Notes under the pieces: model-generated
What the model was told of the DNA's origin: nothing
Databases searched by the model: none
Seen by the model: the letters and a program-made list of their open reading frames with translations, nothing else
Assembly: GCA_016786585.1 (NCBI GenBank)
Contig: JAEUUI010000014.1
Location: 1-64,000, forward strand
DNA: 64,000 bases
From: Cyclobacteriaceae bacterium
GTDB lineage: Bacteria; Bacteroidota; Bacteroidia; Cytophagales; Cyclobacteriaceae
Direction: 5' to 3'
Made by a program: the position numbers and the translations under genes
Shown: positions 43,997-64,000 of the stretch, piece after piece
Position numbering within the stretch: the stretch's first letter is position 1
Layout of the letters: each line of letters opens with the position of its first letter

Positions 43997-44509
43997 TTAT
44001 CTTCCGAAATCGTCCTGCAGACGAACGATGTCACTTTCATCAGATGGATTTTGTGCATCGGTATGTTGCCAGATTTCGGCAACAACGCCCCATTCGTTCA
44101 GCCCCATCAGCCGGTGACGCTGGCCTTGAGCAAGCCGGATTTCATCTCCGGGCTTCAGGTGCGTAGTATCTTTTTCTTCATCGGTCATGCTCGTAACAAC
44201 GCCAACTTTGCCGGAAACTGCACGCCAGATTTCTGCCCGTCTGAAATGATATTGCCACGATAAGCGTTTCTTTGGTTCAACTACCAGAATCTTCGGACTT
44301 AGCTTTCCGCTGATCCGCAGCGATGACAAATCCACACCCGGAAAAAATAACTCTGCGAACTGCTTCGCCTGGGATTCATCGATCACAAAAAAACCACCCC
44401 ATGGGCGTGTGAAGTCATTTGATACCACCTTCAGGTTTAATCCATCCAGGTAATTGGCGATCTCTTCAAATACGGCTTTACGCTCGCTGCTCTTTAGTTG
44501 GAATTCCAT
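43997..44509 (-). CDS. cupin protein resembling mannose-6-phosphate isomerase
   Basis: A 170-aa protein. N-terminal helix (MEFQLKSSERKAVFEEIANYL), then a cupin barrel with RPWGGFFVIDE, LSPKILVVEPKKRLSWQYHFRRAEIWRAVSGKVGV and LAQGQRHRL. Relatives are annotated as type II mannose-6-phosphate isomerases or, in Bacteroidota, phosphoheptose isomerase. In this PUL it probably turns mannose-6-phosphate into fructose-6-phosphate. It starts 11 nt after the ROK kinase stop and is the last gene of the operon. Confidence 0.75.
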   Translation of the reverse strand: MEFQLKSSERKAVFEEIANYLDGLNLKVVSNDFTRPWGGFFVIDESQAKQFAELFFPGVDLSSLRISGKLSPKILVVEPKKRLSWQYHFRRAEIWRAVSGKVGVVTSMTDEEKDTTHLKPGDEIRLAQGQRHRLMGLNEWGVVAEIWQHTDAQNPSDESDIVRLQDDFGR

Positions 44510-44520
44510 AGGTGTATAAC

Positions 44521-45399
44521 TTATAATATTGTTTTCGATTCAAAAAGACTGGCTGCGCCTAAAATGGCCGCTTCTTCGCCAAGCTCGGCACGGACAATCG
44601 GAACGGTAATATTCCGCCCAGCAAGCTGAGCTGTTAAATCCTCCATAAAAAGTGAAGAACACTGTGCAATGTTTCCGCCCATCACAATCACTTGCGGCTT
44701 CTCGGCACGTACAAATCCCTCTAAAAACACCACGAGATTTTTTACAAACTCTTTGAAGATGTTTTTCACCTGCTCATCCGACCCATGTAAATCAGCAAGT
44801 GTTTTCACATCTTTTACCGTATTACCGGTTAATTCGCTGTATCGCTTTACAAACCAGCGGGTAGAAAAATATTCATCGGCTATGCTGTCCATAAACGGTG
44901 CCGGGCCCAGGTTTGCATCGTGGGTTATGCCATGATGATGCATCGCACTGCCGGTTCCGGTTCCGAGCGTGATTCCGATTACATCCTGATATCCCCTGGC
45001 TGCACCATAATACACTTCACCGCGCAGAAAACACGCGGCATCGTTCATCATTAAAATTGAAGTTTCCGGAATGCTCAACCGTTTCGAAAGAATTTCTTTC
45101 ACATTAAGCTTGTAGAGTGCTTCATATTTGTCAAGACCCCTGATCAGCGAAATGCCGTTAGCATAATCAAACGGACCGGGCATCGCAATCCCGATCCTTT
45201 TACTTTTTACCGGGTGAGCCTGAAATGTATCGTCAATGGCCTTCGTCCAGATATCGAGGATTTCCTCGGCTGTTCCCTTTGAATTTACACGCACGCGGAG
45301 GTAAGAATCGGGAACAAATTTCCTGGTTGCTTCGTCCACCAGCGCTGCCGTTAAGTGCGAGCCGCCAATGTCAATCCCCAGAACGATAGCGTCTTTCAT
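44521..45399 (-). CDS. ROK-family sugar kinase
   Basis: A 292-aa ASKHA-fold kinase: phosphate loop GIDIGGSHLTAALVDE, catalytic Asp in MMNDAACFLRGE, and adenosine loop GITLGTGTGSAM. The zinc-binding CxCGxxGCxE motif found in many ROK kinases is absent; the region reads NLGPAPFMDS. It should phosphorylate a hexose, most simply mannose or glucose released by the GH130 enzyme. It is 18 nt from the preceding gene and 11 nt from the cupin gene. Confidence 0.88.
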   Translation of the reverse strand: MKDAIVLGIDIGGSHLTAALVDEATRKFVPDSYLRVRVNSKGTAEEILDIWTKAIDDTFQAHPVKSKRIGIAMPGPFDYANGISLIRGLDKYEALYKLNVKEILSKRLSIPETSILMMNDAACFLRGEVYYGAARGYQDVIGITLGTGTGSAMHHHGITHDANLGPAPFMDSIADEYFSTRWFVKRYSELTGNTVKDVKTLADLHGSDEQVKNIFKEFVKNLVVFLEGFVRAEKPQVIVMGGNIAQCSSLFMEDLTAQLAGRNITVPIVRAELGEEAAILGAASLFESKTIL

Positions 45400-45417
45400 A
45401 AATCAAAAAGCCCAAAA

Positions 45418-46059
45418 CTACTTATTAAATCTATAAAAGATAAAAATTCCTGAGGCCGGAGATGTGTTCACTGCGAGTCCGTGACCATCAAGGTGTTCCG
45501 TAGAATCAGGGTTAAAATAGTAACGCGTTAATTTCGAGTACCGGTAGTTTACATTGAAACTGGCTTCGGCTGAGACGTAAAGTCGCGGATTGATATTAAA
45601 GCGGATTGCCAGAAAAGGCCGCGCTATAATTCCTGCGGATGTTCGCTTCATTCCCGAAGTCTGGACTTTATCAGAAAACGCTTCATATTGATAATAGGAA
45701 AAGCCGGGAATCACGTCCATTCCATAATACCAAACCCACGATTTACCAATCTTTTGCTGAAACTCTTTCCCGATTACAATTCCAAGGTCAACCTGGTTGC
45801 TATTGGAATATTGAGTATCGCCCGAAGCATCGCTCCACGACACGTTCAAGTTTACGCCATAGCGCATTGCGTGACCGGGTTTATTATACGTTTTCAACAT
45901 AATGGCCACCGGAGCGTCAAAGGTCTCAAAAATCCCTTTGAAGATTATATTGGTATTAAAACCAATGTCGCGTGTATAAACAACTTGTGTAGAGTCTTGC
46001 GCATGCACTGCAAAGCCAACTGCAAACAGGAATATTCCTAAAACGATCTTCTTTTTCAT
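45418..46059 (-). CDS. small exported outer-membrane protein of the PUL
   Basis: A 213-aa protein with signal peptide MKKKIVLGIFLFAVGFAVHA and strongly alternating beta segments (VNLNVSWSDASG, QVDLGIVIGKEF, SWVWYYGMDVIPGFSYY, FLAIRFNINPRLYVSAEASFNVNY). It probably forms an 8-10 stranded outer-membrane barrel. No family name. It starts 8 nt after the T9SS-protein gene. Confidence 0.72.
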   Translation of the reverse strand: MKKKIVLGIFLFAVGFAVHAQDSTQVVYTRDIGFNTNIIFKGIFETFDAPVAIMLKTYNKPGHAMRYGVNLNVSWSDASGDTQYSNSNQVDLGIVIGKEFQQKIGKSWVWYYGMDVIPGFSYYQYEAFSDKVQTSGMKRTSAGIIARPFLAIRFNINPRLYVSAEASFNVNYRYSKLTRYYFNPDSTEHLDGHGLAVNTSPASGIFIFYRFNK

Positions 46060-46067
46060 ACCAAAGA

Positions 46068-49000
46068 TTATTGAACTACAATCTTCCGGACAATCATCTT
46101 CGACCCCGCTTTTATTTTAATCAAGAATATTCCATTAGCAGCGTTTATCGTAAGCCGGGCCGTGTTTTGATTTTGAAACTCGATTGTCGTTGGTACCGTT
46201 TTTCCTGTCAGTTCAAAGACCTGAAGGCTGCTCATTGTAGCATTGCCTTGTATGGAGATAACGCCCGCGCTCGGATTAGGATAGATGTGCACCAAACCCT
46301 GTGTGTCTTCCACACCAGTCACAACCTCATACCACTTATCTTTTAATGTGAGGATTTCATTAGGAGGAACAATCGCATGATAGATACGAACTTCATCGAG
46401 CACGCCCCGCAGGTAGTAACTTGCTTCACCGGAATCCTTGCGACCGAACGTAAGTGAATTAGACGTTGTGCCCATCGATCCGGAATGTTGTATAAATGCA
46501 TCCAGTTCTCCATCGGCATACAGCTCCATCGAATAGCCTGAGTACACGGCTGTAAAATGATAGAACTGATTCAGCGTAAGCGGAAAGGAACTGTCCAGAT
46601 CACGGGTGGCAGAATTTGTTTTAACCGTCCAACGCAAGCGGCCGGAGGGAGTTATGGAAACCTTCCAGCGTTGTTCCCAGCTTCCGTGCGAAAGGATAAA
46701 CGTTTCTTCGGGAATGGAAGATGCTTTAACCCAAAACGAAAGCGTAATCTTATCCTGAAAATTCAGGCTGGATACATTCGGTACCGAAATAAGGTCTGAT
46801 CCGGAGTTAAATAAATAAGCTTTACCCTCCTCACCCCGGGCATCGGTAGTTTCATCAACACCCTGCATGGTGGCATTGAAGTCATTACCACTATAATCTT
46901 TTGTATCTCCGTCAAGCGGATAGTATGCCAGCACCGGTGTCTCATCCGTTCCGGACTTTTTTACCAGTACCGGAATTGTCTTTCCGGCTGTAAGGCCATC
47001 CTGATCCGTTACTTCGCACGTGATAAGATAAATACCCTCCGTTGAAGGTGCCTGCCACGTCATGGTGGCACCACTCTGGCTCACTAAGCTTCCGCCCGTC
47101 ATTGTCCAATCGAATTGCAGTGCATTAATCGCGTCTTCATCATCCGTAACGGAAACTGTAAAAACCACCTGACTGCTTACCGGTTGCCACAGGTTTTCAG
47201 ATGTAATGGCCGAGACTACCGGTGGTTCAGGCACACTTTCAACCACGTTAAATGTAATGCTGTCTGTAACCGTCTTGCCGCCTGCTGTTACTTCAACTAC
47301 CAGCACATTTTCACCGGCAAGATTGGGCGCGACCCAGGTAAACACAGGGGTCGTAAATGTTCCTTCCGATCCCTGATCATCATGCCAGGTATAACTTGCA
47401 CCTCCCGCATTTTCAACGGTCAGGTACACCGGAACTGATTGCCCGAACTCAACCGTTGTGTTCGCAACGCCGAGCGCCTTGATTCTCAAATCGGGTGTGA
47501 AATCGTAACCGTAGTGATAATCTACAATCACATCGTTACCCACAAGCTTTCCGTTTTCGGCAACTAGCGTAGTACCGGCCGGAACGTATGTCAGCAACAA
47601 AGCCTCATCGGCTTTAATGGTAATGGTTGTTGATCCGCTAACGGATGTTTTAATTGTAGTTTCCGAAAGCGCATCATAGATATCATGTGTGCCGGCAGGA
47701 AGCGTAAGTGTTACAACTTTATCTGTCGCGTAAGGATTATACAATGCATAAGTTGGATACGCATTTTCCAGGAAGAAATCCGTTTTATTTGCATCAAGTA
47801 ACAAAATACCGTCAACATCTGTTGTGTTGATTACTGCAGCGAGATAGCCTACACTTGAAGAACCATACAAGCCCAGGTTGGTGGCAGCCCAGCTGTTGCG
47901 CTTCGCATCTCCTGTCGCGCGTAATGGAAGGTTTCCATTATGACTATCGCGTTCTTTTAATGCTTCGTAGGCGATCACAGCATCAGGGTCGTACGTGGAA
48001 CTCCAGGTAAAGTCGTCCTGACTGCTCGGATAGGGTCGGTAAAAGAAGCGGCTCGCGTTCGCGAGATTAAGTGCCCACTTGGCGATGTCACGGGTGAAGC
48101 GTTTGTCGTACTTCACCAGCGGAACAAGCGCACCCGCCTGCTGAAAACCATTCAAGGCAAATGCATAATCATTACCACCATCGTTTGCCTCACCGATGAG
48201 GCCGCTCACATCTTTTCCATCCCACTGACCTTTGATAACGCCCCAGCCACGCAAGGGCCCGCGATCAAAACACCAATTCAGAATTTTTGGAACATCATAC
48301 GAGGTGCCCTGTTCGGCATTCATTTTCGCAGCAACGAAGGCTCCGTACGGAAGCTGTAATTCATACGAAGGATTGGACGTTAATGAGGAAAGAAACTCAA
48401 CTGATTGTTGCGCTCCGTTTAAATATTTTTTTTCACCTGTCTCCAGGTAGGCATGGTATAATAACCAACCTATTCCGCCCGCTGCTTCCGGTTCTTTAAC
48501 ACCATCGGAATTACCCGTCATGGTGGCAAGATTCCAGGCACGGTAATTCATGTTCGGAACATTCCAGGGTGCCGTGCGGCCGCCCATGGCATTCACGGCA
48601 GCAAGCCATCGATCCGCTACCGAAACAAATTGTGTTTGATAATCGCTTATGGATGGGTATTGCGTATAAAGTTGATAGAAAAAAATATTCGGCATAACGT
48701 CATACCACCAATCACCACCGCTTCCGGCATTCGATCCGTTGAGGTATACGTTCTGACCATTGGCTTTATTAAAAAAATCTTTTGTTTTCTCTACCCAGTT
48801 GATACCACCCTGATTGGATTTATTGATACCGACCAATGTTGCACCAACCATGGAAGGAATAATGTTTATGCCTTCGGCCTGGGTTGTACTGGGTGAACCG
48901 ATGTAGGTATCAAGTGCAATCGGAGTAATAGAAGGATAGTTGACGGGTGTGCGGGTACCGATCAACGGAAAATAATCTCCCGTATGAGCGTTGACATAAA

Positions 49001-49160
49001 TAAACTGATCGTACTTAACAGCCACATCTTTCCAGTCGCGCATCACGTACGGTGACGGCAAATCCGGCATTTGCGAAACGCGGTTGATGGTGAGTTGCCC
49101 GGTCTGTGCTATGCCGGTCAAACAAAAACTACAGAATACAATCAGTAAAAAATGTTTCAT
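46068..49160 (-). CDS. T9SS-secreted alpha/alpha-barrel (putative glycosidase) with Ig and LamG domains
   Basis: A 1030-aa secreted protein; start ATG at 49160 (MKHFLLIVFCSFC). Residues about 20-560 are homologous to the lipoprotein at 54950-56758, sharing MPDxPSPY, VGI.K.N..G.N, DWWYDV.PN, GA.VAAK.NA, LNW.FD, GWGVI, LVP.VKYD.R and PTY..YNPY. Ig/PKD-like domains (about 565-735), a LamG domain (about 740-920) and a T9SS type A sorting domain (from about 950; IYPNPSAG) follow. Helix-rich layout and PUL context suggest an endo-acting glycosidase or lyase; I do not recognise the family. Confidence 0.72.
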   Translation of the reverse strand: MKHFLLIVFCSFCLTGIAQTGQLTINRVSQMPDLPSPYVMRDWKDVAVKYDQFIYVNAHTGDYFPLIGTRTPVNYPSITPIALDTYIGSPSTTQAEGINIIPSMVGATLVGINKSNQGGINWVEKTKDFFNKANGQNVYLNGSNAGSGGDWWYDVMPNIFFYQLYTQYPSISDYQTQFVSVADRWLAAVNAMGGRTAPWNVPNMNYRAWNLATMTGNSDGVKEPEAAGGIGWLLYHAYLETGEKKYLNGAQQSVEFLSSLTSNPSYELQLPYGAFVAAKMNAEQGTSYDVPKILNWCFDRGPLRGWGVIKGQWDGKDVSGLIGEANDGGNDYAFALNGFQQAGALVPLVKYDKRFTRDIAKWALNLANASRFFYRPYPSSQDDFTWSSTYDPDAVIAYEALKERDSHNGNLPLRATGDAKRNSWAATNLGLYGSSSVGYLAAVINTTDVDGILLLDANKTDFFLENAYPTYALYNPYATDKVVTLTLPAGTHDIYDALSETTIKTSVSGSTTITIKADEALLLTYVPAGTTLVAENGKLVGNDVIVDYHYGYDFTPDLRIKALGVANTTVEFGQSVPVYLTVENAGGASYTWHDDQGSEGTFTTPVFTWVAPNLAGENVLVVEVTAGGKTVTDSITFNVVESVPEPPVVSAITSENLWQPVSSQVVFTVSVTDDEDAINALQFDWTMTGGSLVSQSGATMTWQAPSTEGIYLITCEVTDQDGLTAGKTIPVLVKKSGTDETPVLAYYPLDGDTKDYSGNDFNATMQGVDETTDARGEEGKAYLFNSGSDLISVPNVSSLNFQDKITLSFWVKASSIPEETFILSHGSWEQRWKVSITPSGRLRWTVKTNSATRDLDSSFPLTLNQFYHFTAVYSGYSMELYADGELDAFIQHSGSMGTTSNSLTFGRKDSGEASYYLRGVLDEVRIYHAIVPPNEILTLKDKWYEVVTGVEDTQGLVHIYPNPSAGVISIQGNATMSSLQVFELTGKTVPTTIEFQNQNTARLTINAANGIFLIKIKAGSKMIVRKIVVQ

Positions 49161-49180
49161 AACTAAGAAATCTAAAAGCA

Positions 49181-49210
49181 ATCACCCCGAAGGTTGCCCT
49201 CCAGGGTGAT
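49181..49210 (-). terminator. intra-operon hairpin after the LamG lipoprotein gene
   Basis: Arms ATCACCC and GGGTGAT (49181-49187, 49204-49210) form a 7-bp stem 25 nt past the stop, followed on the minus strand by TGCTTTTAG. It may partly terminate or protect the susCD-side mRNA and so lower expression of downstream genes. Confidence 0.45.
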
Positions 49211-49235
49211 GCACAACAGTTAACCAAAAAAAATT

Positions 49236-50312
49236 TTATTCAACAGGCTTTTCGATGTTATACAACGTTGTTACCTGAGTTTCTGTGAGCGGAGTGTTGT
49301 AGATACGGACTTCGTCCAAAACGCCTTTGAAGTATCCACCCCAGTTTACATAGAAGTCACCTTCTGTAGCAGTGTACTTATCGGTTGGTAAATCCTGGCC
49401 GATAGTCAAGTTGATCGGATTCGCAGAAATGTCGATTCCTGTTCCAGGCGTGTTATCCCAGTCCTTCACTTTCGTTCCGTTTACGTAGAAAATCATGTGG
49501 CCATCACCGAATGTTACCACTACATGATACCAGTCACCCTGCGTAAGGATTGGATCAGCGTTGTCTCTGTCGTAGTAAGCCGGATCTGGACTTCCTGCTA
49601 CATCAGCTTTAACAGTCATGAACGCCTTAGGGCTATCCTGCATATTAAGTTTCCAGCCGTTCCAACGGTTTACTGCAACCATGTATTGGTTATTCAAGAT
49701 GGTGGGCGTGTTTACATCCTGCTTCATCCACAATGAGATAGTCATCTTTTCAGGATTCAACTGCGTGCTGTACGGAACTTCAATGTTTGAACCTGCATTG
49801 AAATAGATAGCTCTGTTAGCATTACCGTAGCGGTCAGCTGTCCAGGTTGGATTTCCAGCGCCCCAGAATGCATGACCGGTTTTAAATGTACCGTCATGGT
49901 TGTTATCAGATGCATCATTAGCAGTTGTACCAGTTCCCTCATCGAACTTCCAGTGCGCCATCAGGTTTGCCGGAGCGATCGGGGTAATGATCTTACTTTC
50001 ATACGTAGTGATTGCTGCCTGAAGGTTAACGTTTGCGTTGTTCACCTCAGTTTGCGTTGCATTTTTATCTGCTGCCACCGCTGCTGCTGCTGTTACTGCG
50101 GCAGTCAGCGCAGTTTGAGAACCCGTCAGGTACTGGCCATTTGAAGTTCCTTCTTCGGTGTTGTCTAATAGGTCTTGCGCTTCAGCGATGCTTGCCAAAA
50201 GCGTTTCCTTGTCAGCACCCTTTCCACCGCCATCATCGTCCGAACATGCGGCCATAAATCCTACACCGAGGATGACCGCGAAGGAGAGCAATAATTTGAT
50301 CTTCGTTTTCAT
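49236..50312 (-). CDS. surface glycan-binding lipoprotein with LamG domain
   Basis: A 358-aa lipoprotein: lipobox FMAAC, followed by DDDGGG (an Asp/Gly-rich tether typical of surface-exported lipoproteins). Residues about 35-110 form a FIVAR-like three-helix module (Ala-rich). A LamG/concanavalin-like domain covers about 115-350 (LMAHWKFDEGTG, MTISLWMKQD, GVLDEVRIYNTPL). It probably binds the target glycan beside SusCD. It is 48 nt after susD. Confidence 0.85.
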   Translation of the reverse strand: MKTKIKLLLSFAVILGVGFMAACSDDDGGGKGADKETLLASIAEAQDLLDNTEEGTSNGQYLTGSQTALTAAVTAAAAVAADKNATQTEVNNANVNLQAAITTYESKIITPIAPANLMAHWKFDEGTGTTANDASDNNHDGTFKTGHAFWGAGNPTWTADRYGNANRAIYFNAGSNIEVPYSTQLNPEKMTISLWMKQDVNTPTILNNQYMVAVNRWNGWKLNMQDSPKAFMTVKADVAGSPDPAYYDRDNADPILTQGDWYHVVVTFGDGHMIFYVNGTKVKDWDNTPGTGIDISANPINLTIGQDLPTDKYTATEGDFYVNWGGYFKGVLDEVRIYNTPLTETQVTTLYNIEKPVE

Positions 50313-50360
50313 AGTTTAATCATTAAAGTTTAATCGTTTATTGTTTATTGTTTAAGGTTA

Positions 50361-51848
50361 CTAGTCAATAGCTGTGTTGGCGTCTACTTCTGCCTGCGGA
50401 ATCGGGAAATACCGTTCCGTTGCATAATCAAAATCTGTATCGGAAAGCGCTGCTTCGGCCGTTGCAGCGCCATAGCGCATCAAATCAAAAAAGCGGTGGA
50501 ATTCAAAACCAAGCTCTACCCTGCGTTCATGACGGATGGCATTGCGTACCGAGGTTTGTGACGTTGCCGGCACATCGGGTAAAAGGTTTGCCGGAACAGA
50601 ACCAGCCCCTGGCAAATCCAAATCGTACAGATAGCTTTCCCGCGCGCGCTTGCGAACTTCGTTCAACGGAATTATGGCCTGCGCTGTCTGATTAAGTTCG
50701 TTCAGCGCTTCGGCTTTCATCAACAGGATGTCGGCATAACGCATGTATACATAATTCAAGCTGGCGTCACCGATGATCGGCTCTTCCCGCAACGGCTGAA
50801 CATGTTTCTTTTGCAGGTATCCGGTAGCTGACCATGTCGGATCGAACGGTTCGCCATTGATCCAGTCTTGTCCGGCCTGACCAACGGTATAATCAAGTCG
50901 CGGATCAACTACGTTTCCGGCAGTCACCTCAAACTCATCAACGAAATCCTGCAACGGAACATCAAATGCATAGCCGTTGTTATCAGGTGCTCCAAACCAT
51001 TGATTGAGGTGACTTCCTAGTTTCGGGATCTGACCACTTTCATGCTGAATCTCAAAAATTGATTCGCTGTTGTTTTGGGTTGAATCGAGGAAATTGTTTT
51101 TGTAAACAGGCTGCAGACTGTAAATCCCTAAATCCTCCAGCGACTGAATCGCATCAAGTGATTCCTGCCACTTACCCTGGTACAACCTGGCTTTAGCCAA
51201 TAAACCCCACGCTGCTCCTTGTGTCGCACGCCCAACATCCGCTCCTGAATACTCAACCTCTAATACTTCTGTAGCATCCAGCAGGTCTTCTTCAATCTGC
51301 GCATACACATCCTCCACAGACGATTTGCCGATGTTGATCAGGCCGGAGTTTAATGGCGGTTGCGTCTTCAGGGGAATCTCACCGAAAATGTTCACGAGAT
51401 TGAAATAGAAAAACGCCCGCAGAAATTTGGCTTCACCCAATATTCTTGCTTTCAGATCAGCATCCATAGCAATGTTATCCGCATAGTAAAGCAGGTAGTT
51501 TGCACGCGTGATGCCTTCGTAATACTGACTCCAGATTTTAAGCAGGAACCCGTTGTTGGCCGAGTAGTTGAACTCTTCGAGGAACTGAATCTCGCTTTGA
51601 TCGCCCGCTGCTCCGCCTTTCACGGCATCATCAGAAGCAACATCCCCAAAAACCCATAATGCATTGTTGGTCGAAACAAATGAAGCTTTGTTATACACCC
51701 CGGTTATCGCCAGCAGGGCGTGTTCTTCCGTTTTGTAGAAATTCTCAGTAGTGTACCTTCCTTTCGGTGTTTCGTCAAGGAAATCAGCGCACGCTGAAAC
51801 AAATCCGATCAGCGCTAAGAAGAAAATTATTTTATACGAATTTTTCAT
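50361..51848 (-). CDS. SusD/RagB-family glycan-binding lipoprotein
   Basis: A 495-aa surface lipoprotein: MKNSYKIIFFLALIGFVSAC lipobox, then FLDETPKGRYTTENFYKTEEHALLAI, the standard SusD opening. The TPR-rich body includes EAKFLRAFFYFNLVNIFGEIPL, and the C-terminal half has RYADILLMKAEALNEL and IRHERRVELGFEFHRFFDLMRYG. It forms the lid of the SusC pore and captures oligosaccharides. I chose the ATG at 51848, 12 nt after the susC stop; the frame opens at a TTG at 51860. Confidence 0.96.
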   Translation of the reverse strand: MKNSYKIIFFLALIGFVSACADFLDETPKGRYTTENFYKTEEHALLAITGVYNKASFVSTNNALWVFGDVASDDAVKGGAAGDQSEIQFLEEFNYSANNGFLLKIWSQYYEGITRANYLLYYADNIAMDADLKARILGEAKFLRAFFYFNLVNIFGEIPLKTQPPLNSGLINIGKSSVEDVYAQIEEDLLDATEVLEVEYSGADVGRATQGAAWGLLAKARLYQGKWQESLDAIQSLEDLGIYSLQPVYKNNFLDSTQNNSESIFEIQHESGQIPKLGSHLNQWFGAPDNNGYAFDVPLQDFVDEFEVTAGNVVDPRLDYTVGQAGQDWINGEPFDPTWSATGYLQKKHVQPLREEPIIGDASLNYVYMRYADILLMKAEALNELNQTAQAIIPLNEVRKRARESYLYDLDLPGAGSVPANLLPDVPATSQTSVRNAIRHERRVELGFEFHRFFDLMRYGAATAEAALSDTDFDYATERYFPIPQAEVDANTAID

Positions 51849-51860
51849 AGCTGTCGTCAA

Positions 51861-54926: not shown

Positions 54927-54949
54927 AGAGTTCGGTTTCATGTGTTAGG

Positions 54950-56758
54950 TTAGTGTTTTGTTGAGTCGGGTAACCAGGTTACGACCTTGCCACCGGCAGA
55001 CACCTGATTTTTTTGCTTTTCGATTTTACTTCCCTGAGGGAGAACAACAATCAGTCGTGCACTTTTTGCCGGAATAGTGAATGAGCCACCGGAGGTTGCA
55101 CCTTCAAGCAATGTTGTTTGAGTCAGCGCATCATACAGATCAAAGTTTCCTTCAGCACCGGTAAAACTTACGTCTTTTGGCTCCTCGTATGGATTGTAAT
55201 ACAAATACGTTGGGAAATCGTTCTTGCCGTAGAAATCCGTTACGTTGCAATCGAGCTGAAGAATTTTTTCAACGTTTGTTTTCTTAATAATGGAACCAAA
55301 AATTCCAACCTGCGAAGAGCTGTACAAACTGTACATGCTCTCTTCAGGCTGACCTTTAACCCATTTCGGACCGTCTCCTAATGAAACCGGTGTAATTCCT
55401 TTTAATGCAGCCTTTCCGTAATCATCCGCTTTACGGATTCCTTCGTAGGCAATAACATTCTTCGTGATCTCTTTCTTTTCAGGAAGCCACTGGTGCTGGT
55501 CGTCCATTTCATATGGATAGAAGAATCTTGCCGCATTCGAAACATTCAGCATCCATTTCCCAATCGTAACTGCATACCGGCTGTCGTATTTAACCATCGG
55601 CACAAGCGGCCACGCGAGATCGAACGAGTTCATGAGAAACGCATAGCCTCCGCCATCGGTAATGCTGCCTTGCAAGCCATGCATATCGTAGTCGCCCCAG
55701 CGTTCGGCAATTACGCCCCAGCCCGTGCGACCGTCAGCAGCTTTGCAGCCGTCAAACGTCCAGTTCAAAAATTTCTGAACATCGTAGTTTGTTCCGTGAT
55801 CAGCATTAAGCTTCGCAGCCACCAATGCACCAAATGGCATCATCAGTTCATAGAACCGGCTTTCCTTCTGACTCGCAAAGGCATCCATAGCCGACTTTGC
55901 ACCTTTCAGATATTTTTCATCGCCAAATTTTTCATATGCGCTGAGCAGCACAAATGCATGGCCGGCTGCTGCGTCCTGTTGTTTCGGAATCTGGTTAACA
56001 AATCCCTGCATCTTGCTGTAATCGAAATATGAGTAGTCGTAACTGCCATTCAGAACTGAATCGGCTTTATAAAACTGATCGGCAATGATCCGCTGTAGGC
56101 TATCGGCACGTGGTACATTCGGGTACAGGTCGCAGATCGCGTAGAAAAGCATGTTCGGCACAACATCATACCACCAGTCGCGGCCATAGCCTCCGCCCAT
56201 AAGGGCGACAGAAGGATGGGTATTATTCATCATGATGTTCCAGCCGTTTTCGCGATTGAAGTAGTTCTGGATCATCTTCACATAGTTCATTCCATCATGG
56301 TTTGTCTTGTCAATTCCGACAAGGCCCGCACCCATAATGGCGCCCATGGCGTTGAGTGCTTCATGAAACTCTTTATTACCTTTTGCACCCTGACGCACGT
56401 CCCCGATCACGGTAAACAAGCCAAACGTTGTCTGATTGAAATTGCGTTTTGTACTGTCGAGCCACAGGAATGGCAAAAACTCGCCTTTTAAGTTCCGGTT
56501 AAAAACATACTGATCGTAATTCAGCGCCTTCTCTTTCCAGTCGAGCATTTTATATGGGGACGGCTGATCGGGCATGAGATTGACGCGATCGATTGAAAGC
56601 TGTTCGACCTGAACAGGATCTGACTTGCAGCCGGCCAGCAGGGAAACCGCCACCAGGATAGCAACCATAGCGCGGACGGAAGAATATCTCAGCAGTCCCT
56701 TATTCGGGGATTCTTCGCTGATGCTCAGCATGACGTTATATGATCTAAACTTTATCAT
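54950..56758 (-). CDS. alpha/alpha-barrel lipoprotein of the PUL, paralogue of the T9SS protein
   Basis: A 602-aa lipoprotein with lipobox LLAGC (signal peptide probably from an internal Met near AMVAILVAVSL, after a short basic leader). The mature protein is helix-rich with DWWYDVVPNMLFY, YELMMPFGALVAAKLNADHGT, LNWTFDGC, GWGVIAERWGDYD and TDGGGYAFLMNSFD, matching the N-terminal half of the 46068-49160 product, and ends with a beta domain like the all-beta caps of (alpha/alpha)6 glycosidases. Its start overlaps the MFS stop by 14 nt; susC follows after 23 nt. Likely a glycan-degrading enzyme; family unknown to me. Confidence 0.75.
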   Translation of the reverse strand: MIKFRSYNVMLSISEESPNKGLLRYSSVRAMVAILVAVSLLAGCKSDPVQVEQLSIDRVNLMPDQPSPYKMLDWKEKALNYDQYVFNRNLKGEFLPFLWLDSTKRNFNQTTFGLFTVIGDVRQGAKGNKEFHEALNAMGAIMGAGLVGIDKTNHDGMNYVKMIQNYFNRENGWNIMMNNTHPSVALMGGGYGRDWWYDVVPNMLFYAICDLYPNVPRADSLQRIIADQFYKADSVLNGSYDYSYFDYSKMQGFVNQIPKQQDAAAGHAFVLLSAYEKFGDEKYLKGAKSAMDAFASQKESRFYELMMPFGALVAAKLNADHGTNYDVQKFLNWTFDGCKAADGRTGWGVIAERWGDYDMHGLQGSITDGGGYAFLMNSFDLAWPLVPMVKYDSRYAVTIGKWMLNVSNAARFFYPYEMDDQHQWLPEKKEITKNVIAYEGIRKADDYGKAALKGITPVSLGDGPKWVKGQPEESMYSLYSSSQVGIFGSIIKKTNVEKILQLDCNVTDFYGKNDFPTYLYYNPYEEPKDVSFTGAEGNFDLYDALTQTTLLEGATSGGSFTIPAKSARLIVVLPQGSKIEKQKNQVSAGGKVVTWLPDSTKH

Positions 56759-58079
56759 TACTCAATTTATTCGCTACGTTAACAATGTGTTTCGCCAATG
56801 GAATTGACGCGATCTGCAATACAGCAATCACAATGAGGGAGTACTTCAACGCAAAAGTTTCGGAGACGTACGTAGCCAATACAATGAAAAGACCCAGGCC
56901 AATGAAACGACCGATGTAAAGGCCAAACTCATGATTGAAGATGTAAGCAAATTCGTTCCGGTTCTCAATTTTAGACACTACATCAATCACGCGCATTTGG
57001 ATGGGAAAGTACGCTATATCATGCAAAGGCTGGAACAACACTTTACACAATACGAAAACAATTACGCCAATGGCCGAAAACAGAATGCCATTGGTAAGCG
57101 TGCCTATCAGGAAAATAAATAACCCGGCAGTTAAAATAGCGATACGATGTTTGGGTAACGTGAATCTTCCAAGCAGGTAAAGCATGAAAGCAGTAATCAC
57201 TCCGCTTACCGCCTGCACCATTCCCAATGATCCTTCATTACCAACAAGCGTAAGGATAAGAATTGCCGGAGCGGTAACGAGATAACCCTGTGCCAATCCC
57301 TTCAAACCCGCCAGCACGAGCATCTTACGCCAAAGTGAATGGAATTTAAAAAACAGGAATGCCTTCTGAGCAGGCTTGACAAAATGCCCGCGGTTTATAA
57401 CAATACTGGAAAGAATCGTAAGAATAAAGACTACGATTGTAACGATCTGGTAAGCTGTCTGGAAGTTGCCGCCGAACCACGCACCATCGCTTGCCGCGCC
57501 CAAAAATGCGCCAATGGCAAACGGAACGAGGATGGCCGTCATGGTATAGAAGAATGTTTCTAATCCATAGTAATAGTTACGATTTGCATCGTTCGTAGTG
57601 GCCAGCGCGAGGTAATCGCGGTTCGCCCAAAAGAAACCAAATGAACATCCCATTAAAATACCGGCAACCCCTACGCCTGTTGCCGAAAGTGTGTTCAGGG
57701 TCATCATCACCAGCATCGACAGTCCGCTGAGCAGCATCCCAAAACTGTAGAGGTGCGATGTCTTCACGCGACTCAACAGATATCCATTAATCAGAAATGT
57801 TAATGGAATTCCGGTGTAAACGGTAAGCTGATAAATCACCACAATTTTCGGATCATTTGAGCTCCGCATGATGTATGCTCCCACGAAGATTTCAATTACC
57901 GGCAATACAAATGCGTAAATCAGATTGGTCACCAGCAACACACGCATATCGCGCGGCATGGTCATGAAATAATTAAACTCGCTGAACGGCTTTTTCCAAA
58001 ACGATGGTTTGCGTGTTACCGCTGCGCTGGTCGTTCCCTCAAAATTTTCTGCAACGTCTGTGGATGTATCCCGAATCAT
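56745..58079 (-). CDS. MFS sugar transporter
   Basis: A 444-aa inner-membrane carrier with 12 predicted helices. After a polar N-terminus (about 35 residues) come FVLPVIEIFVGAYIMRSS, FGFFWANRDYLALATTND and a second half with LKGLAQGYLVTAPAIL. No signature gives the substrate, but placement directly after GH130 (2 nt) and before the barrel lipoprotein suggests import of the oligosaccharide made in the periplasm. I chose the ATG at 58079; the frame extends to 58133 inside the GH130 gene. Confidence 0.87.
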   Translation of the reverse strand: MIRDTSTDVAENFEGTTSAAVTRKPSFWKKPFSEFNYFMTMPRDMRVLLVTNLIYAFVLPVIEIFVGAYIMRSSNDPKIVVIYQLTVYTGIPLTFLINGYLLSRVKTSHLYSFGMLLSGLSMLVMMTLNTLSATGVGVAGILMGCSFGFFWANRDYLALATTNDANRNYYYGLETFFYTMTAILVPFAIGAFLGAASDGAWFGGNFQTAYQIVTIVVFILTILSSIVINRGHFVKPAQKAFLFFKFHSLWRKMLVLAGLKGLAQGYLVTAPAILILTLVGNEGSLGMVQAVSGVITAFMLYLLGRFTLPKHRIAILTAGLFIFLIGTLTNGILFSAIGVIVFVLCKVLFQPLHDIAYFPIQMRVIDVVSKIENRNEFAYIFNHEFGLYIGRFIGLGLFIVLATYVSETFALKYSLIVIAVLQIASIPLAKHIVNVANKLSNDKV

Positions 58080-58081
58080 AC

Positions 58082-59128
58082 TCAGCGGTTTAAAGTTTTC
58101 AATATTTCGTTTATCGACAGCTCGGCCATGCAAATCACTTCATCACTCGCTCCATAATACATGCGAATGGTATCGCCTTCCACAATATGGCCGTTGGTAA
58201 ACACCACATTCCCGAAGAAGCCGGTTAGTTCGTAGTCCGCTGTGGGTTCAACAAAAGGCTCTTCGCTGCGCGCAAGCACTTTTGACGGATCGTTCAGATC
58301 CAGTAACAACGCACCCAAGCAGTAGCGGTGTTTTTCATTTGCGCCATGATAGATTTCAAGCCAGCCGTGCGGTGTTTTAATCGGTGCTGCACCCGCGCCT
58401 ACACGGGCACTGTCCCACATGCCTTTGCGGGATGTAGCAATGCATTTATGATTTCCCCAGTGCAACAGATCGGGCGACTCGGCAATCCAAATGTAATTAC
58501 CACCCAATTGCGGACTGCTCGGCCGGTGCAATGCATAGTATTTTCCATTGATCTTCTCTTCGAAGATGGCACAGTCTTTATTGTGGGGTGAAAAAATCAT
58601 TCCCTTGCGGTCGAGCTTTTTCCAGTCTCTGGTTTGGATTAAACCTACACCTACCCCGTATGACGACACCTGGGTGTACGTTAGGTTATACGTTCCGTCA
58701 ATATTGATCACGCGGCAGTCCTCAATTCCGTATGCCTCGTGCTTGTCGCTTCCAAAAATGGGCGCATACCCCTCCGGCTCATAAAACTTCTCGTTACCCT
58801 CGCTGCACACAAGCCGGAGGTGCGAAAGCGTAGTTAAGTAGTCCTTTCCTTTATAATTAATAACCCTGGGATCGCTGAAATCGAGGTTTGGGTCAGACTT
58901 ATCAAACGTGAGGATCTCGATCTTCCCGGACTCATTATATATAGGAAAGCTGATTTTACCATCCTGCTGCTCGGGCATTTCAGCCACTCGTAACAACAAC
59001 CAGGTCTTATTTTGGTAAGTAAACACGCCCGGATTGAGCAAACACTCGATTTTCATACCCGGCATGCTGGGTTTCAGGTCCGCAGGCCGGAGAATCGGGT
59101 TGTTTTTGAATCGCTTGGCTATGTCCAT
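58082..59128 (-). CDS. GH130 family beta-mannoside phosphorylase/hydrolase
   Basis: A 348-aa five-bladed propeller enzyme. FKNNPILRPADL, ECLLNPGVF, the general-acid Asp D137 in GIEDCRV, and CLGALLLDLNDPSKVLARSEEPFVEP are GH130 landmarks. Known members phosphorolyse beta-1,4-mannosyl-glucose or beta-1,4-/beta-1,2-mannooligosaccharides, or hydrolyse beta-1,2-mannosides. No signal peptide, so it acts in the cytoplasm. I chose the ATG at 59128; the frame opens at 59197 but that leader contains a strong inverted repeat. It is the first gene of the ten-gene PUL operon. Confidence 0.93.
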   Translation of the reverse strand: MDIAKRFKNNPILRPADLKPSMPGMKIECLLNPGVFTYQNKTWLLLRVAEMPEQQDGKISFPIYNESGKIEILTFDKSDPNLDFSDPRVINYKGKDYLTTLSHLRLVCSEGNEKFYEPEGYAPIFGSDKHEAYGIEDCRVINIDGTYNLTYTQVSSYGVGVGLIQTRDWKKLDRKGMIFSPHNKDCAIFEEKINGKYYALHRPSSPQLGGNYIWIAESPDLLHWGNHKCIATSRKGMWDSARVGAGAAPIKTPHGWLEIYHGANEKHRYCLGALLLDLNDPSKVLARSEEPFVEPTADYELTGFFGNVVFTNGHIVEGDTIRMYYGASDEVICMAELSINEILKTLNR

Positions 59129-59150
59129 TTGTCTGTCTATCAGTTCATTG

Positions 59151-59182
59151 ATCGTTTTCAGAAGATATTTCCCGAAAACGAT
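59151..59182. promoter_or_regulatory. inverted repeat upstream of the PUL operon
   Basis: ATCGTTTTC (59151-59159) and GAAAACGAT (59174-59182) form a perfect 9-bp inverted repeat with a 14-nt spacer, 22 nt before the GH130 ATG. It could bind the divergent hybrid regulator or form a 5'-leader hairpin. Confidence 0.5.
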
Positions 59183-59310
59183 TGCAATTTTGGCCATCCG
59201 GGGACTTTTGGCGTCCGCTATTTTGTTTATTTAGTTCTCCCGGTTCCGTTTTTTCAGTGAAAAGAGAATCCAGTGGACAAAAGGAGTACCCGCAGGACAA
59301 CTTTCCCGGG

Positions 59311-59338
59311 TTTGCTTCTTTCGGAATGCATAGGTTTG
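59311..59338 (+). promoter_or_regulatory. Bacteroidota-type promoter of the hybrid regulator gene
   Basis: TTTG (59311-59314) and TAGGTTTG (59331-59338) match the -33 and -7 consensus, with a 16-nt spacer, slightly short of the usual. The ATG follows 28 nt after the -7 box. Confidence 0.6.
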
Positions 59339-59366
59339 TAATACTTACCTTGAGTGGAATGTGGCT

Positions 59367-62300
59367 ATGAGTACTGCGCTTCTAGTATCGGTTTTCCTGT
59401 CGCTGCCCGTTTCGGACACTCTAACCCCATTGCCCTACCAGCACATTGGTAAAAAAGACGGCCTTTCGAACAGCGCCATCACCTCTATTTATATGGACCA
59501 GTATGATTATACCTGGTTCGGGAGCTGGGATGGTCTGAACCGCTATGACGGCAGTACTATTAAAGTATACAAGCCTGAAGCGTTTGGCGATGGCGCCATC
59601 AGCAATAACATCGTCAGGAACATGCTGGAAGACAAAGCCGGCAACCTATGGATCGTTACCCACAAAGGTATTAACCGGTACAACCGCGATACCGATTCAT
59701 TTAAGAGCTACCTCTCCGACCTTTCAAATATCCCGGTGCTTGAAAATAACATGCGAACGTGTTTGGGCCCCGATTCGTCTTTATGGGTTAGCGTGATCGG
59801 GCAGGGTATTAACCGCTACGACAGCAAGAGTGATGCATTTATTCCGGTGGAAATAAAAGATGTTCCGGCTGAATGGCTAAAAGCTGTTTCCGGCATCGGC
59901 AGCGCAAATGGATTAATGTACCTGCTGGGGAGCGATGCCCGGTTGACTTGTCTGCTCAATAATAAAGTAGTTTTCAGCAAACAGCTTATCCCGGCCGCGC
60001 AACTGCGTTTACATTATTTCTTTACCATCAACGGAAAGTATTACCTCGCGCTTTCGTTTGACGATGGAAGTATCATGCTCTACTCGCTTGCCGACATTGA
60101 ACGGGCACCGCAGTCGATTGATCTTTCCGCATTTCCGGTTTCTTCTTTGTCCGTTAACCGGGACAACGCCGCGCTGTGGATCGGCACTGACCTTGGCGAT
60201 ATTTTTAAGCTGACCTTATCAAACAATCAATTCGTTCCTTCCAACCAGGCTTCACGGTTTCCGCTTCTGTCGAAAGCGCAACGGAAGATTCTCGCCATCA
60301 CAGAAACCAAACAGGATATTTTTTGGGTGGGTACCGATGGTGACGGTATTTTCAAATTTCTAACCCGTCCAAAACCATTTTATTCTGTTCCCTCGGGTTC
60401 AACCGAAAAGGGCGGCTTGTCGAACAGCATTGTGCGCTCTGTATACGAAGACAATGATGGCACATTATATACCGGGACGCGCGGTGGCGGATTGAATATC
60501 ATCCGTGCGAATCAGCCTACCAAAGTATTGAACACAGCAAAAGGACTCAGCAATAATGCAGTTTTGTCACTCAATAAAGACAAAGCCGGCAATTTGTGGA
60601 TTGGGGTTGATGGCGAAGGCATTGACATGCTGGAATCGAAAACCGGAAAAATCTTTCACTTCCCGCGCGACTTCGAAAACAAAACCGATTTGAAGTTCAA
60701 TTTCGTGTATTCCATTTGTTTGGATGCATACGGAACGTTGTGGCTGGGTACCAGCGGAAACGGGGTGATTAATATGAAAGTCAGCAAGGGCAGATCCGGA
60801 AAGTATCAGCTTGAATATTATAAACAGATTTCTCACAGCGCAGAAGAAAGCTCATCGATCAACAGTAACGTGGTTTACTCGGTGGTAGAAGAAACCCCGA
60901 ATATTCTCTGGTTCGGAACGCGTGGTTCCGGAGTCTATCGGTATAATTCGCTCTCCGGAAAAATCGAAGAACATTTTTACACCGGCTCCGACAAACAACG
61001 CCTCAGCAACGATGATGTACTCAGCCTGTTCATCAGCGAGAAAGAAGAGCTTTGGGTTGGTACAAGCGGTGGGGTAAATAAAATCTCGCTGCAAACGAAG
61101 CCTTATGCAATTTCGCGCTACACACAACGCGAAGGGTTGCCAAACAATACCATTCATGCTATCCTACAGGATGCAAACAACATGCTATGGCTTTCTACCA
61201 ATAATGGGCTCGTAATGCTCGATCCTGTGAAAGCTGCATTTAAAAATTTCGACACCAACGATGGATTGCAAAACAACGAATTCACCGATGGTGCTTCGTT
61301 CCGTTCGCGCGGTTCTGAAAAACTGTTCTTTGGTGGCATTAACGGTCTCGATATCATTTATCCAACAAAACTCGATACCATCAGCAACTTCCCGCGGCTT
61401 ACCATCAGCGAGTTTCAGGTCCACAACGTAATTGTAACGCCACGCGATTCAAGCCAGATTCTAAAGAAGCACATTGATCTCGCGAAAGAAATTTCCCTGA
61501 ACTACGATCAGAACTTCATCAGCTTCCACTTCACTACACTAAACTACTGGAATAAGCAGCGAACCGAGTATGCCTACTTTCTTGAAAATTTCGACAAAGC
61601 CTGGAACTACATCGGTCAGCAGTCGGTGGTTAACCTGACAAACATTCCGCCCGGCAGGTACACGCTTCATATTAATTACACCAACGAAAATGGTACGTGG
61701 AATACCAAGCCTAAAAAGATTGCGATTGTAGTTCATCCACCTTTCTGGAAAACAAATCTCGCGTACGCGATTTATTTGCTTTTGTTAGTAGGCCTGCAGA
61801 TTGGGATCGTATTGATCGTTCGTCAGCGTGCACGAACCAAGCGCGCGGCTGCGATCAATAAATTCAAAATGCAGCAAATGAAAGAGCTGAATGATTATAA
61901 GCTTCAGTTCTTCACAAACGTAGCACATGAGTTTCGTACACCGCTTACGCTGATCTTCGGTCCGGTGACGGCTTTAATTAAAAAAGCTTCCAGCGCCTGG
62001 GACCGCTACCAGCTTAAAACAATTTATGGAAACTCACTTCGGCTTCAAAAGCTGATTGAAGAGCTTATTCAGTTCAGAAAGATTGAAAGCGGAAAAGAAA
62101 AGCCGCAGGTTACGCAGGTGGAGTTAATCACATTCACGCAGGATATTGTCGAAACCTTTGTTCAGCACGCAGTAGATCACGATGTACATCTCGAATTTTT
62201 GCCGGAACCTGAATCTATGCAGGCCTGGATCGATCCCAAAAAGCTTGAGAAAATCCTGATCAACCTGATTTCGAATGCGATCAAATACAATGTGAAGGGC

Positions 62301-63485
62301 GGCCACGTTGAGATCATTCTACGCGAAAGCAATCAACATGCTGTGTTCATCATTAAAGACACTGGCGTAGGCATAGCCGACAGCGACCGGAGCAAAATTT
62401 TTGAGAGCTTTTACCAGAACACCGCACAGCCTGCAGAACAACAGCCTTTTGCAATGAGTACGGGCATTGGCTTATCGCTTACAAAGAGTTTGGTTGAATT
62501 ACATCTCGGTGAAATCCGCCTCGAAAGCACAGCGGGCAAAGGCTCAACGTTTACCGTTACGTTGCCGATCAGTCGTGAAGCGTATGCGATGTTCGCAGAC
62601 GAAAAGAACTACACGCTGCCGGTTACAAACCTGGAAGAAAAAGTACAGCAGGAGTTCGGATACATCAACCGCGCTCCCGAATTGCCGACAACCGATGCGG
62701 AAGTACTTCCCGAGCTTGACCGGTATTCACTTTTGATTGTGGATGATCACGATCAGATTCTTGTGCTGCTGCAAAGTATTTTATCCGATAAGTACAAAAT
62801 TTTTACCGCGCGAAACGGAGAAGAGGCCCTGGCATTGCTTGACGAAGAAAAAATCGACCTCGTGATCAGCGATATTCTGATGCCGGGCATGGATGGCCTC
62901 ACGTTATGCCGCAGAATAAAAGATAATATTCAAACCAGTCACGTGCCGGTAATCCTGTTAACCGCAAAAGCTGAAATCGAAGATCGGATCGAAGGACTGC
63001 AGATGGGCGCTGACTCCTACATTCCAAAACCTTTCCACCCGGATCACCTGTTCATCCGCATTGAAAAGCTGATCAAGAACCGGGAACAGATTAAAAAGCG
63101 CTTCGAGAATTTTGCAGAGGTTGAACTCGGACAGATGTCAACCGGTATCAGTGAAAAAGATGATGAGTTCTTCGTACGCATAACGCAATGTATTGAACGT
63201 CATCTGAGCGAATCTGAATTCAGTGCCGATACAATTGCCGATGAAGTCGGTATGAGCAAGGCATCGTTGTACAAAAAAGTAAAAGCAACGGTTGGTTTGA
63301 CGCCTCACGGACTGATCAAACAGTACCGCCTGCGAAAGGCAGCTGACTTGCTCAAAAACACCGATATGAGCGTTTCCGAAGTGATTTATGAAACAGGCTT
63401 CAACAGCCGTTCATACTTTTACAAATCGTTCAACGAGATGTTCCATTGCCATCCAAAGGATTTTGGAGGTGCCAAGGCTGGATAA
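59367..63485 (+). CDS. hybrid two-component system regulator (Reg_prop/Y_Y_Y, HK, REC, AraC HTH)
   Basis: A 1372-aa membrane regulator that senses oligosaccharide in the periplasm and activates its PUL. Signal sequence, then about 14 Reg_prop propeller repeats (DGLSNSAITSI, WIGTDLGDI, WLGTSGNGV) up to about residue 690, a Y_Y_Y domain, one transmembrane segment near 798-818 (YAIYLLLLVGLQIGIVLI), HisKA with H854 in VAHEFRTPL, HATPase (NLISNAIKYN, GIGLSLTKS), receiver with D1169 in LVISDILMPGMDG, and a C-terminal AraC-type HTH (ADEVGMSKASLYKKV). ATG at 59367 preferred over GTG at 59361. Divergent from the GH130-led operon. Confidence 0.96.
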   Translation: MSTALLVSVFLSLPVSDTLTPLPYQHIGKKDGLSNSAITSIYMDQYDYTWFGSWDGLNRYDGSTIKVYKPEAFGDGAISNNIVRNMLEDKAGNLWIVTHKGINRYNRDTDSFKSYLSDLSNIPVLENNMRTCLGPDSSLWVSVIGQGINRYDSKSDAFIPVEIKDVPAEWLKAVSGIGSANGLMYLLGSDARLTCLLNNKVVFSKQLIPAAQLRLHYFFTINGKYYLALSFDDGSIMLYSLADIERAPQSIDLSAFPVSSLSVNRDNAALWIGTDLGDIFKLTLSNNQFVPSNQASRFPLLSKAQRKILAITETKQDIFWVGTDGDGIFKFLTRPKPFYSVPSGSTEKGGLSNSIVRSVYEDNDGTLYTGTRGGGLNIIRANQPTKVLNTAKGLSNNAVLSLNKDKAGNLWIGVDGEGIDMLESKTGKIFHFPRDFENKTDLKFNFVYSICLDAYGTLWLGTSGNGVINMKVSKGRSGKYQLEYYKQISHSAEESSSINSNVVYSVVEETPNILWFGTRGSGVYRYNSLSGKIEEHFYTGSDKQRLSNDDVLSLFISEKEELWVGTSGGVNKISLQTKPYAISRYTQREGLPNNTIHAILQDANNMLWLSTNNGLVMLDPVKAAFKNFDTNDGLQNNEFTDGASFRSRGSEKLFFGGINGLDIIYPTKLDTISNFPRLTISEFQVHNVIVTPRDSSQILKKHIDLAKEISLNYDQNFISFHFTTLNYWNKQRTEYAYFLENFDKAWNYIGQQSVVNLTNIPPGRYTLHINYTNENGTWNTKPKKIAIVVHPPFWKTNLAYAIYLLLLVGLQIGIVLIVRQRARTKRAAAINKFKMQQMKELNDYKLQFFTNVAHEFRTPLTLIFGPVTALIKKASSAWDRYQLKTIYGNSLRLQKLIEELIQFRKIESGKEKPQVTQVELITFTQDIVETFVQHAVDHDVHLEFLPEPESMQAWIDPKKLEKILINLISNAIKYNVKGGHVEIILRESNQHAVFIIKDTGVGIADSDRSKIFESFYQNTAQPAEQQPFAMSTGIGLSLTKSLVELHLGEIRLESTAGKGSTFTVTLPISREAYAMFADEKNYTLPVTNLEEKVQQEFGYINRAPELPTTDAEVLPELDRYSLLIVDDHDQILVLLQSILSDKYKIFTARNGEEALALLDEEKIDLVISDILMPGMDGLTLCRRIKDNIQTSHVPVILLTAKAEIEDRIEGLQMGADSYIPKPFHPDHLFIRIEKLIKNREQIKKRFENFAEVELGQMSTGISEKDDEFFVRITQCIERHLSESEFSADTIADEVGMSKASLYKKVKATVGLTPHGLIKQYRLRKAADLLKNTDMSVSEVIYETGFNSRSYFYKSFNEMFHCHPKDFGGAKAG

Positions 63486-63563: not shown

Positions 63564-64000
63564 ATGAAAATCGGAAAAGAAAAAGTAGCCGCCATTCATT
63601 ATACGTTAACGGATAACAGCGGTAATGTGCTCGACAGCAGCAAAGGCCGCCAACCATTGTATTATATCCAGGGAATTGGCAACCTGATCCCGGGAATGGA
63701 GGAAGGTCTGGAAGGAAAATCAAAAGGCGATAAGTTCACGATCAAGGTTAGTCCTGAAAAAGGATATGGCGTTCGCGATGACAAACAGATTCAAAAGGTT
63801 CCGCGTTCAGCGTTCGGAACACAAGACGTAAAAAAAGGCATGCAATTTTCCGCAAGCGGTAATCACGGCTCCCAGGTTGTTACCGTAACAGAAGTTGGGT
63901 TGGATACCGTAACCATCGATGGCAATCACCCGCTGGCAGGCGTTGAATTAAACTTTGATGTGGAAGTAATGGAAGTTCGCAACGCAACAAGTGAAGAGCT
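63564..64000 (+). CDS. FKBP-type peptidyl-prolyl isomerase, SlyD-like (partial)
   Basis: The first 145 codons of a gene cut by the window end. The product opens MKIGKEKVAAIHYTLTDNSG, then NLIPGMEEGLEGKSKGDKFTI, GYGVRDD, a chaperone-type flap insert (about residues 75-120) and NHPLAGVELNFDVEV, the SlyD signature. It is a cytoplasmic proline isomerase and folding helper. The C-terminal tail, which may hold metal-binding His in SlyD, is not in the window. Confidence 0.93.
   Translation, partial: MKIGKEKVAAIHYTLTDNSGNVLDSSKGRQPLYYIQGIGNLIPGMEEGLEGKSKGDKFTIKVSPEKGYGVRDDKQIQKVPRSAFGTQDVKKGMQFSASGNHGSQVVTVTEVGLDTVTIDGNHPLAGVELNFDVEVMEVRNATSEE

Follow-up and report, generated by a model that had tools for sequence, protein, structure and literature searches.

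The window analysed here is the whole stretch of 64,000 nucleotides formed by positions 1 to 64,000 of contig JAEUUI010000014.1 from a Cyclobacteriaceae bacterium (assembly GCA_016786585.1). It contains a ten-gene minus-strand operon (43997-59197) lying opposite a divergent plus-strand hybrid two-component regulator of 1374 amino acids, a layout described in a sequence-only reading of this DNA and borne out here, all of these open reading frames (ORFs) being open at their positions. The operon encodes a glycoside hydrolase (GH) family 130 protein, a major facilitator superfamily (MFS) transporter, a lipoprotein with an (α/α) barrel, a SusC/SusD pair, a LamG lipoprotein, a second barrel protein with a LamG domain and a type IX secretion system (T9SS) sorting tail, a small exported protein, a ROK kinase and a cupin. 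Domain searches revealed a SusC/SusD pair, a linked carbohydrate-active enzyme and a regulator, which is the composition of a polysaccharide utilization locus (PUL). We consider it moderately probable that this PUL serves the utilization of β-1,2-linked mannan or mannooligosaccharides, with backbone cleavage ensured by a glycosidase family that has no name yet.

The linkage is best indicated by the GH130 protein, whose family membership is clear by profile (PF04041, 168 bits for a cut-off of 26). When compared to solved structures by a PDB sequence search, its first match was Uhgb_MS (563 bits, E 2e-168) and its second the Listeria protein Lin0857 (332 bits, E 3e-98), followed by a β-1,2-oligomannan phosphorylase (179 bits), a β-1,2-mannobiose phosphorylase (162 bits) and TM1225 (156 bits), with the remaining β-1,4 enzymes at 111.5 bits or less. 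Lin0857 is described as a β-1,2-mannobiose phosphorylase, Uhgb_MS as a mixed-linkage mannoside synthase having β-1,2-mannobiose among its products, and TM1225 as a β-1,4-mannooligosaccharide phosphorylase (PMC8950772). Three NCBIfam models were matched at E ≤ 1e-5, all below cut-off, with those for mannobiose phosphorylases (BtaManbiosPhlase and β-1,2-mannobiose phosphorylase) ranking before that for β-1,2-mannosidase. One lysine, Lys199 in BT3780, is described as a determinant of β-1,2 specificity, being shared by all four β-1,2 enzymes compared and missing from β-1,4 enzymes (PMC4599007). Its likely counterpart in the window GH130 is K207, which belongs to an NKD motif common to Uhgb_MS, Lin0857 and 9fj8; this position is a lysine in every aligned GH130 row except the second GH130 of the source genome (Arg), the GH130-like row of L070 (26%) being unaligned at the motif. 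The other motif residues are E159-D160, R225, R265 and H284; at position 265, close relatives have Arg and more distant ones Lys or Gln. The basic residues R225, R265 and H284 may be phosphate ligands, GH130 hydrolases having two glutamates instead. Because the closest relatives are Uhgb_MS and Lin0857 and the NKD lysine is present, the mannose-containing glycan (a β-mannoside or a mannose-capped glycan) proposed by the sequence-only reading gains support, and β-1,2-linked mannosides become the more precise proposal. That reading would have been undone by a GH130 subgroup with another substrate; the subgroup found favours a mannoside, with the β-1,2 group closest. These comparisons provide good support for β-1,2, rather than mannosides in general, as the linkage handled, and the protein is predicted to be a β-1,2-mannobiose phosphorylase.

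The barrel lipoprotein shares 36-39% identity with the N-terminal region of the T9SS protein, of which it is a paralog, and, on sequence grounds, the two barrels are one conserved family without a name. Outside its barrel, the T9SS protein matches known families through its LamG domain and sorting tail; the barrel part matched no family over cut-off in Pfam or NCBIfam, including the GH127, GH144, GH76 and GH92 Pfam families, and no significant solved relative in the PDB sequence search. AlphaFold models were of high confidence, with a predicted local distance difference test (pLDDT) score of 90.4 for the lipoprotein and 93.2 for the T9SS barrel domain. Beyond its first row, the lipoprotein model retrieved GH127/GH146 with Foldseek, most of the top matches listed being (α/α) glycosidases, and the T9SS barrel domain retrieved GH88 unsaturated glucuronyl hydrolases, then GH76, epimerases, GH9 and GH47 among others listed. 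The predicted fold class is clearly of the (α/α) glycosidase type, none of the structures listed being a near relative. Five acidic residues (D82, E133, E304, E439 and D462) show no variation across the 39 aligned sequences, 25 of the lipoprotein type and 14 others, the truncated barrel of L024 having been left out of the alignment. In a midpoint-rooted FastTree phylogeny, the lipoprotein type forms a clade with support 1.0 that also takes in L070 and an additional barrel from L013, and the T9SS proteins make up the other side, with a support of their own of 0.196.

Several candidate relationships of the barrels were rejected. An origin from GH144-like β-1,2-glucanases gave no significant hhalign match, a relation to GH127 beyond the fold was limited to 25 aligned columns and was not significant, and GH92 sequences were likewise not significant by hhalign. 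Membership of the C5-epimerase family was set aside (Pfam 16.8 for a cut-off of 23.3). Five proteins of 634-761 amino acids recovered as weak barrel matches reached an hhalign probability of 32.7 over 71 columns. The barrel homolog on two plasmids (see below) is labelled 'hypothetical protein' in RefSeq, and no characterized member of the family was found in the open-licence literature, CAZy and the subscription literature being outside that search.

Exo-acting phosphorylases and mannosidases for the β-1,2-mannose linkage are known. No report of an enzyme cutting a β-1,2-mannan chain internally (endo-β-1,2-mannanase) was found in the open-licence literature searched, as judged mostly from listings and abstracts, and the string '2-mannanase', where checked, refers to endo-α-1,2-mannanase. 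We see an even chance that the barrels represent an undescribed GH family, namely β-1,2-mannanases with an endo or exo mode of action. These would be the missing β-1,2-mannan depolymerases, with a distribution across Bacteroidota that extends to plasmids of two Persicobacteraceae. The earlier suggestion that backbone cleavage rests on these two proteins holds at the level of sequence: they are paralogs, have a predicted (α/α) glycosidase-type barrel and travel with the GH130 gene.

This association was documented by a locus search seeded with the window barrel sequence alone, which reaches close relatives only. The GH130, MFS and barrel genes were adjacent in all 22 loci found, which include Bacteroides ihuae, Pedobacter nutrimenti, Chryseolinea and Chryseotalea. 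The gene order given by the sequence-only reading is conserved for this core, well beyond chance, and not for the last three genes, which fall outside it: matches were listed in three of the 22 loci for the ROK kinase, in one (L006) for the small protein and in none for the cupin, many loci ending soon past the T9SS gene. At the scale of the phylum, a barrel match occurred in 26 of 395 genomes, 19 of them with E below 1e-180; the seven weak ones (E 1e-5 to 1e-3) were set aside from the counts. GH130 (E ≤ 1e-10) was found in 19/19 strong-barrel genomes versus 135/395 overall (Fisher p 5.7e-10, uncorrected for relatedness). A neighbourhood survey of 18 strong-barrel genomes (source genome excluded, up to 20 kb each) revealed adjacent GH130, MFS and barrel genes in six, a GH130 elsewhere in the stretch in nine, only a weak 26% match in one and none in two. 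The genome samples (22 loci, 395 genomes and the genus set) overlap in part, and G238 and L026 are probably one genome.

Within the genus of the window, the barrel is present in only 3 of 17 genomes, and the locus is therefore accessory. The same cluster is carried by plasmids pPP5 and pAT2 (L158, L159) of Persicobacter psychrovividus and Aureibacter tunicatorum (Persicobacteraceae), suggesting horizontal transfer. In more distant genomes, a family of GH2-sized genes recurs in eight loci; all five members scanned were GH2 and four of them carry a mannosidase Ig domain (Pfam). ABC transporter genes also neighbour the barrels in these genomes, the Pfam scan having covered part of the genes flanking the loci. 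A different arrangement was observed in L107, L110, L111, L115, L116 and L121, where a close GH130 (63-65%) lies among genes of recurrent size, with no barrel, MFS or SusCD match listed.

The features of the locus are collected in Table 1, together with an α-glucosidase found in other loci. Within the operon, intergenic gaps are, by increasing coordinate, 11, 18, 8, 54, 48, 0, 8, -14 and -52 nt. The spacing of 75 nt or less noted previously is confirmed, the widest gap being 54 nt; the mention of several overlaps was too strong, with two of nine junctions overlapping, both tied to the choice of the longest ORF. Since the GH130 protein probably begins at Met24, where its sequence matches the start of Uhgb_MS, the overlap at that end depends on the longest-ORF start. 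Gene identities were confirmed for GH130, SusC, SusD, both LamG proteins, the T9SS tail, the ROK kinase, the cupin and the regulator; the MFS match is sub-threshold and the small protein has no family in Pfam or NCBIfam, PHROGs having given nothing useful. As anticipated, the Pfam scan of the operon found no GH26, GH5, GH92 or GH76 domain. The ROK kinase matched no NCBIfam equivalog over cut-off, and the cupin had no PDB relative at E 0.01.

Table 1. Features of the candidate β-1,2-mannan locus in the window, and a GH13 gene found in barrel clusters of other loci (named in the second column).
Feature	Sequence	Coordinates	Strand	Evidence
GH130, predicted cytoplasmic β-1,2-mannobiose phosphorylase	window	58082..59197	-	PF04041 168 bits; PDB matches Uhgb_MS, Lin0857
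MFS transporter, predicted inner-membrane oligosaccharide importer	window	56745..58133	-	PF07690 E 1.9e-5, 24.2 bits, below Pfam cut-off (33.4); GH130 neighbour in 22/22 loci
Candidate β-1,2-mannan depolymerase, an (α/α)-barrel lipoprotein ending in a β-sandwich	window	54950..56758	-	AlphaFold; Foldseek; lipobox LLAGC, read from sequence
SusC-type TonB-dependent transporter	window	51861..54941	-	TIGR04056 884.6 bits
SusD-type surface glycan-binding lipoprotein	window	50361..51860	-	PF07980 and PF14322 over cut-off
LamG lipoprotein, probably binding glycans at the surface	window	49236..50312	-	PF13385 69.8 bits; lipobox then CSDDD, read from sequence
Secreted barrel paralog carrying a LamG domain and a T9SS sorting tail	window	46068..49181	-	PF13385; PF18962; 36-39% identity to barrel lipoprotein
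Small exported protein, 213 aa	window	45418..46059	-	No family match; match listed in 1/22 loci (L006)
ROK sugar kinase, predicted to phosphorylate released mannose	window	44521..45399	-	PF00480 85.2 bits
Cupin related to mannose-6-phosphate isomerase	window	43997..44509	-	PF01050 (MannoseP_isomer) 41.3 bits, cut-off 23.6
Hybrid two-component regulator	window	59361..63485	+	Reg_prop, Y_Y_Y, HisKA, HATPase_c, Response_reg and HTH_18, all over cut-off
GH13 α-glucosidase	L158	19442-21076		58-65% identical between loci
GH13 α-glucosidase	L019	17524-19143		58-65% identical between loci
GH13 α-glucosidase	L058	11409-13037		58-65% identical between loci
GH13 α-glucosidase	L060	7754-9376		58-65% identical between loci

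Past the regulator, and 78 nt from it, begins an FKBP-type prolyl isomerase gene on the same strand (63564-63998). In L014 (1448-5576), the hybrid regulator occurs in two pieces of 962 and 382 amino acids, perhaps a split or broken gene. Elsewhere in the source genome, four clustered genes matching the Glycoamylase (GH144-type) Pfam family lie at 70-76 kb on contig C8 (L142, L146, L148 and L149) and possibly form a β-1,2-glucan locus.

If the locus is indeed devoted to β-1,2-mannan, its products would act in succession. The chain would be cut by the T9SS-secreted and lipoprotein barrels, the former at the cell surface, and the resulting fragments would be bound and imported by the LamG lipoprotein together with SusC and SusD. 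Short oligomers would then be moved into the cytoplasm by the MFS transporter and cleaved by GH130 with phosphate into mannose-1-phosphate and mannose, the latter being converted by the ROK kinase and the cupin into fructose-6-phosphate for entry into glycolysis. The regulator may sense a released oligomer and switch on the operon. The chain-cutting activity of the barrels is the putative step that starts this scheme, and the role of the cupin is its least certain part because the metal motif, compared by eye with the usual pattern, seems incomplete.

Several observations weigh against this interpretation. With regard to GH130, its nearest relative, Uhgb_MS, makes mixed-linkage products (PMC8950772), and the NCBIfam scores stay under the equivalog cut-offs (NF050092, 436 for 550 bits; NF052550, 208 for 450 bits). 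Among 23 genomes having a close GH130 (at least 58%), 13 had no strong barrel match, which speaks against a strict partnership; in the 12 of these that were inspected (all but G202), the GH130 had neither an MFS nor a barrel match listed next to it. For the barrels, the lipoprotein model has a virus tail protein as its top Foldseek match, and the (α/α) matches are weak (template modelling score of about 0.25-0.6, 8-13% identity). As to the downstream steps, the ROK and cupin genes are outside the conserved core, and one usual His ligand of the cupin metal motif is, by eye, seemingly missing. Finally, the GH13 α-glucosidase of Table 1 joins the barrel clusters of four diverged loci, a hint that some substrates may carry α-glucose, a non-mannose component.

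The same GH13 genes, together with the mixed-linkage products of Uhgb_MS, fit an alternative in which the locus is directed at β-1,2-mannose caps carried by a larger α-mannan, a bacterial O-antigen or an exopolysaccharide, GH130 handling only the caps and the barrels cleaving a part of the polymer that is not β-1,2-linked. Such caps occur on Candida α-mannan, and characterized β-1,2-mannosidases reside in α-mannan loci (PMC4599007); β-1,2-mannosyl motifs are also described in Klebsiella and Salmonella O-antigens (PMC4264767). We nevertheless regard this alternative as rather unlikely, since the operon lacks GH92 and GH76 genes and the source genome has no GH76 match. The two GH92 genes of this genome both lie on contig C7, and an α-mannan locus was rejected on these grounds. 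Among the 19 strong-barrel genomes, the GH92 gene nearest to a barrel was 13 kb away (G080), followed by 15 kb (G379) and 36 kb (G238); in all other cases it was more distant, on another contig or absent. This GH92 search covered 39 locus or genome stretches, with L013 and L026 outside it and the contig relation not given for genomes reached through their loci.

A further alternative would be that the barrels are epimerases, lyases or binding proteins, other enzymes being responsible for depolymerization. Foldseek does return epimerases and isomerases that share this fold, and a weak C5-epim_C match (31 residues, E 0.005) points in this direction, but the latter is a short helical stretch below cut-off, the operon holds no other candidate depolymerase, and two paralogs, one secreted and one lipid-anchored, suit the cleavage of a polymer; we judge this possibility improbable. 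Still less credit is given to a β-1,4-mannan or glucomannan locus, which appears very improbable even if GH130 includes β-1,4-mannooligosaccharide phosphorylases such as TM1225 and distant barrels have GH2 genes encoding mannosidase Ig domains in their vicinity. The window GH130 has its nearest relatives in the β-1,2 group, and no β-1,4-mannanase (GH26, GH5, GH113 or GH134) was found in the Pfam scan of the operon. Furthermore, a GH130 of the mannosylglucose-phosphorylase type is located elsewhere, on contig C14 (L002 176-3865); its best PDB match is a 4-O-β-D-mannosyl-D-glucose phosphorylase (589 bits), and besides the Arg at the K207 position, it has a Tyr before the catalytic Asp. Because this second gene is of that type and adjoins genes of the GlcNAc_2-epim and sodium:solute symporter families, contig C14 likely encodes a separate β-1,4-mannan route.

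β-1,2-linked mannose is a component of Candida mannan (PMC4599007), and β-1,2-mannosyl structures are described in trypanosomatids, including the Leishmania reserve, and in several bacterial O-antigens (PMC4264767). A conserved candidate family encoded beside a phosphorylase would offer an experimental handle on β-1,2-mannan recycling, and could yield reagents for detecting or trimming β-1,2-mannose glycans, its novelty being relative to the open-licence literature searched, with the subscription literature outside.

Among known systems, the (α/α) glycosidases GH127, GH88 and GH76 resemble the barrels in overall fold, as judged by Foldseek, and differ from them in sequence, with 8-13% identity and a GH127 profile comparison that is not significant (hhalign covered GH127, GH144 and GH92). 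The β-1,2-glucanases GH144, GH162 and GH192-194 offer a functional parallel, being (α/α)6 barrel enzymes that act on a β-1,2-linked polymer (PMC12102758), but hhalign revealed no sequence relation between GH144 and the barrels, and no entry of these families was named among the Foldseek matches listed (best 50 per model). The window GH130 keeps the basic residues R225, R265 and H284, possible phosphate ligands, in a locus devoid of GH92 and GH76. The Bacteroides α-mannan loci with BT3780 likewise associate a GH130 with β-1,2-mannose linkages, but GH130 proteins of this type are hydrolases without phosphate-binding residues and belong to yeast α-mannan loci (PMC4599007). The closest parallels are Lin0857 and Uhgb_MS, with high similarity across the whole GH130 protein and motifs in common; set against them are the NCBIfam scores under cut-off, the mixed-linkage activity described for Uhgb_MS, and the location of the window GH130 in a complete SusCD locus that also encodes two barrel proteins.

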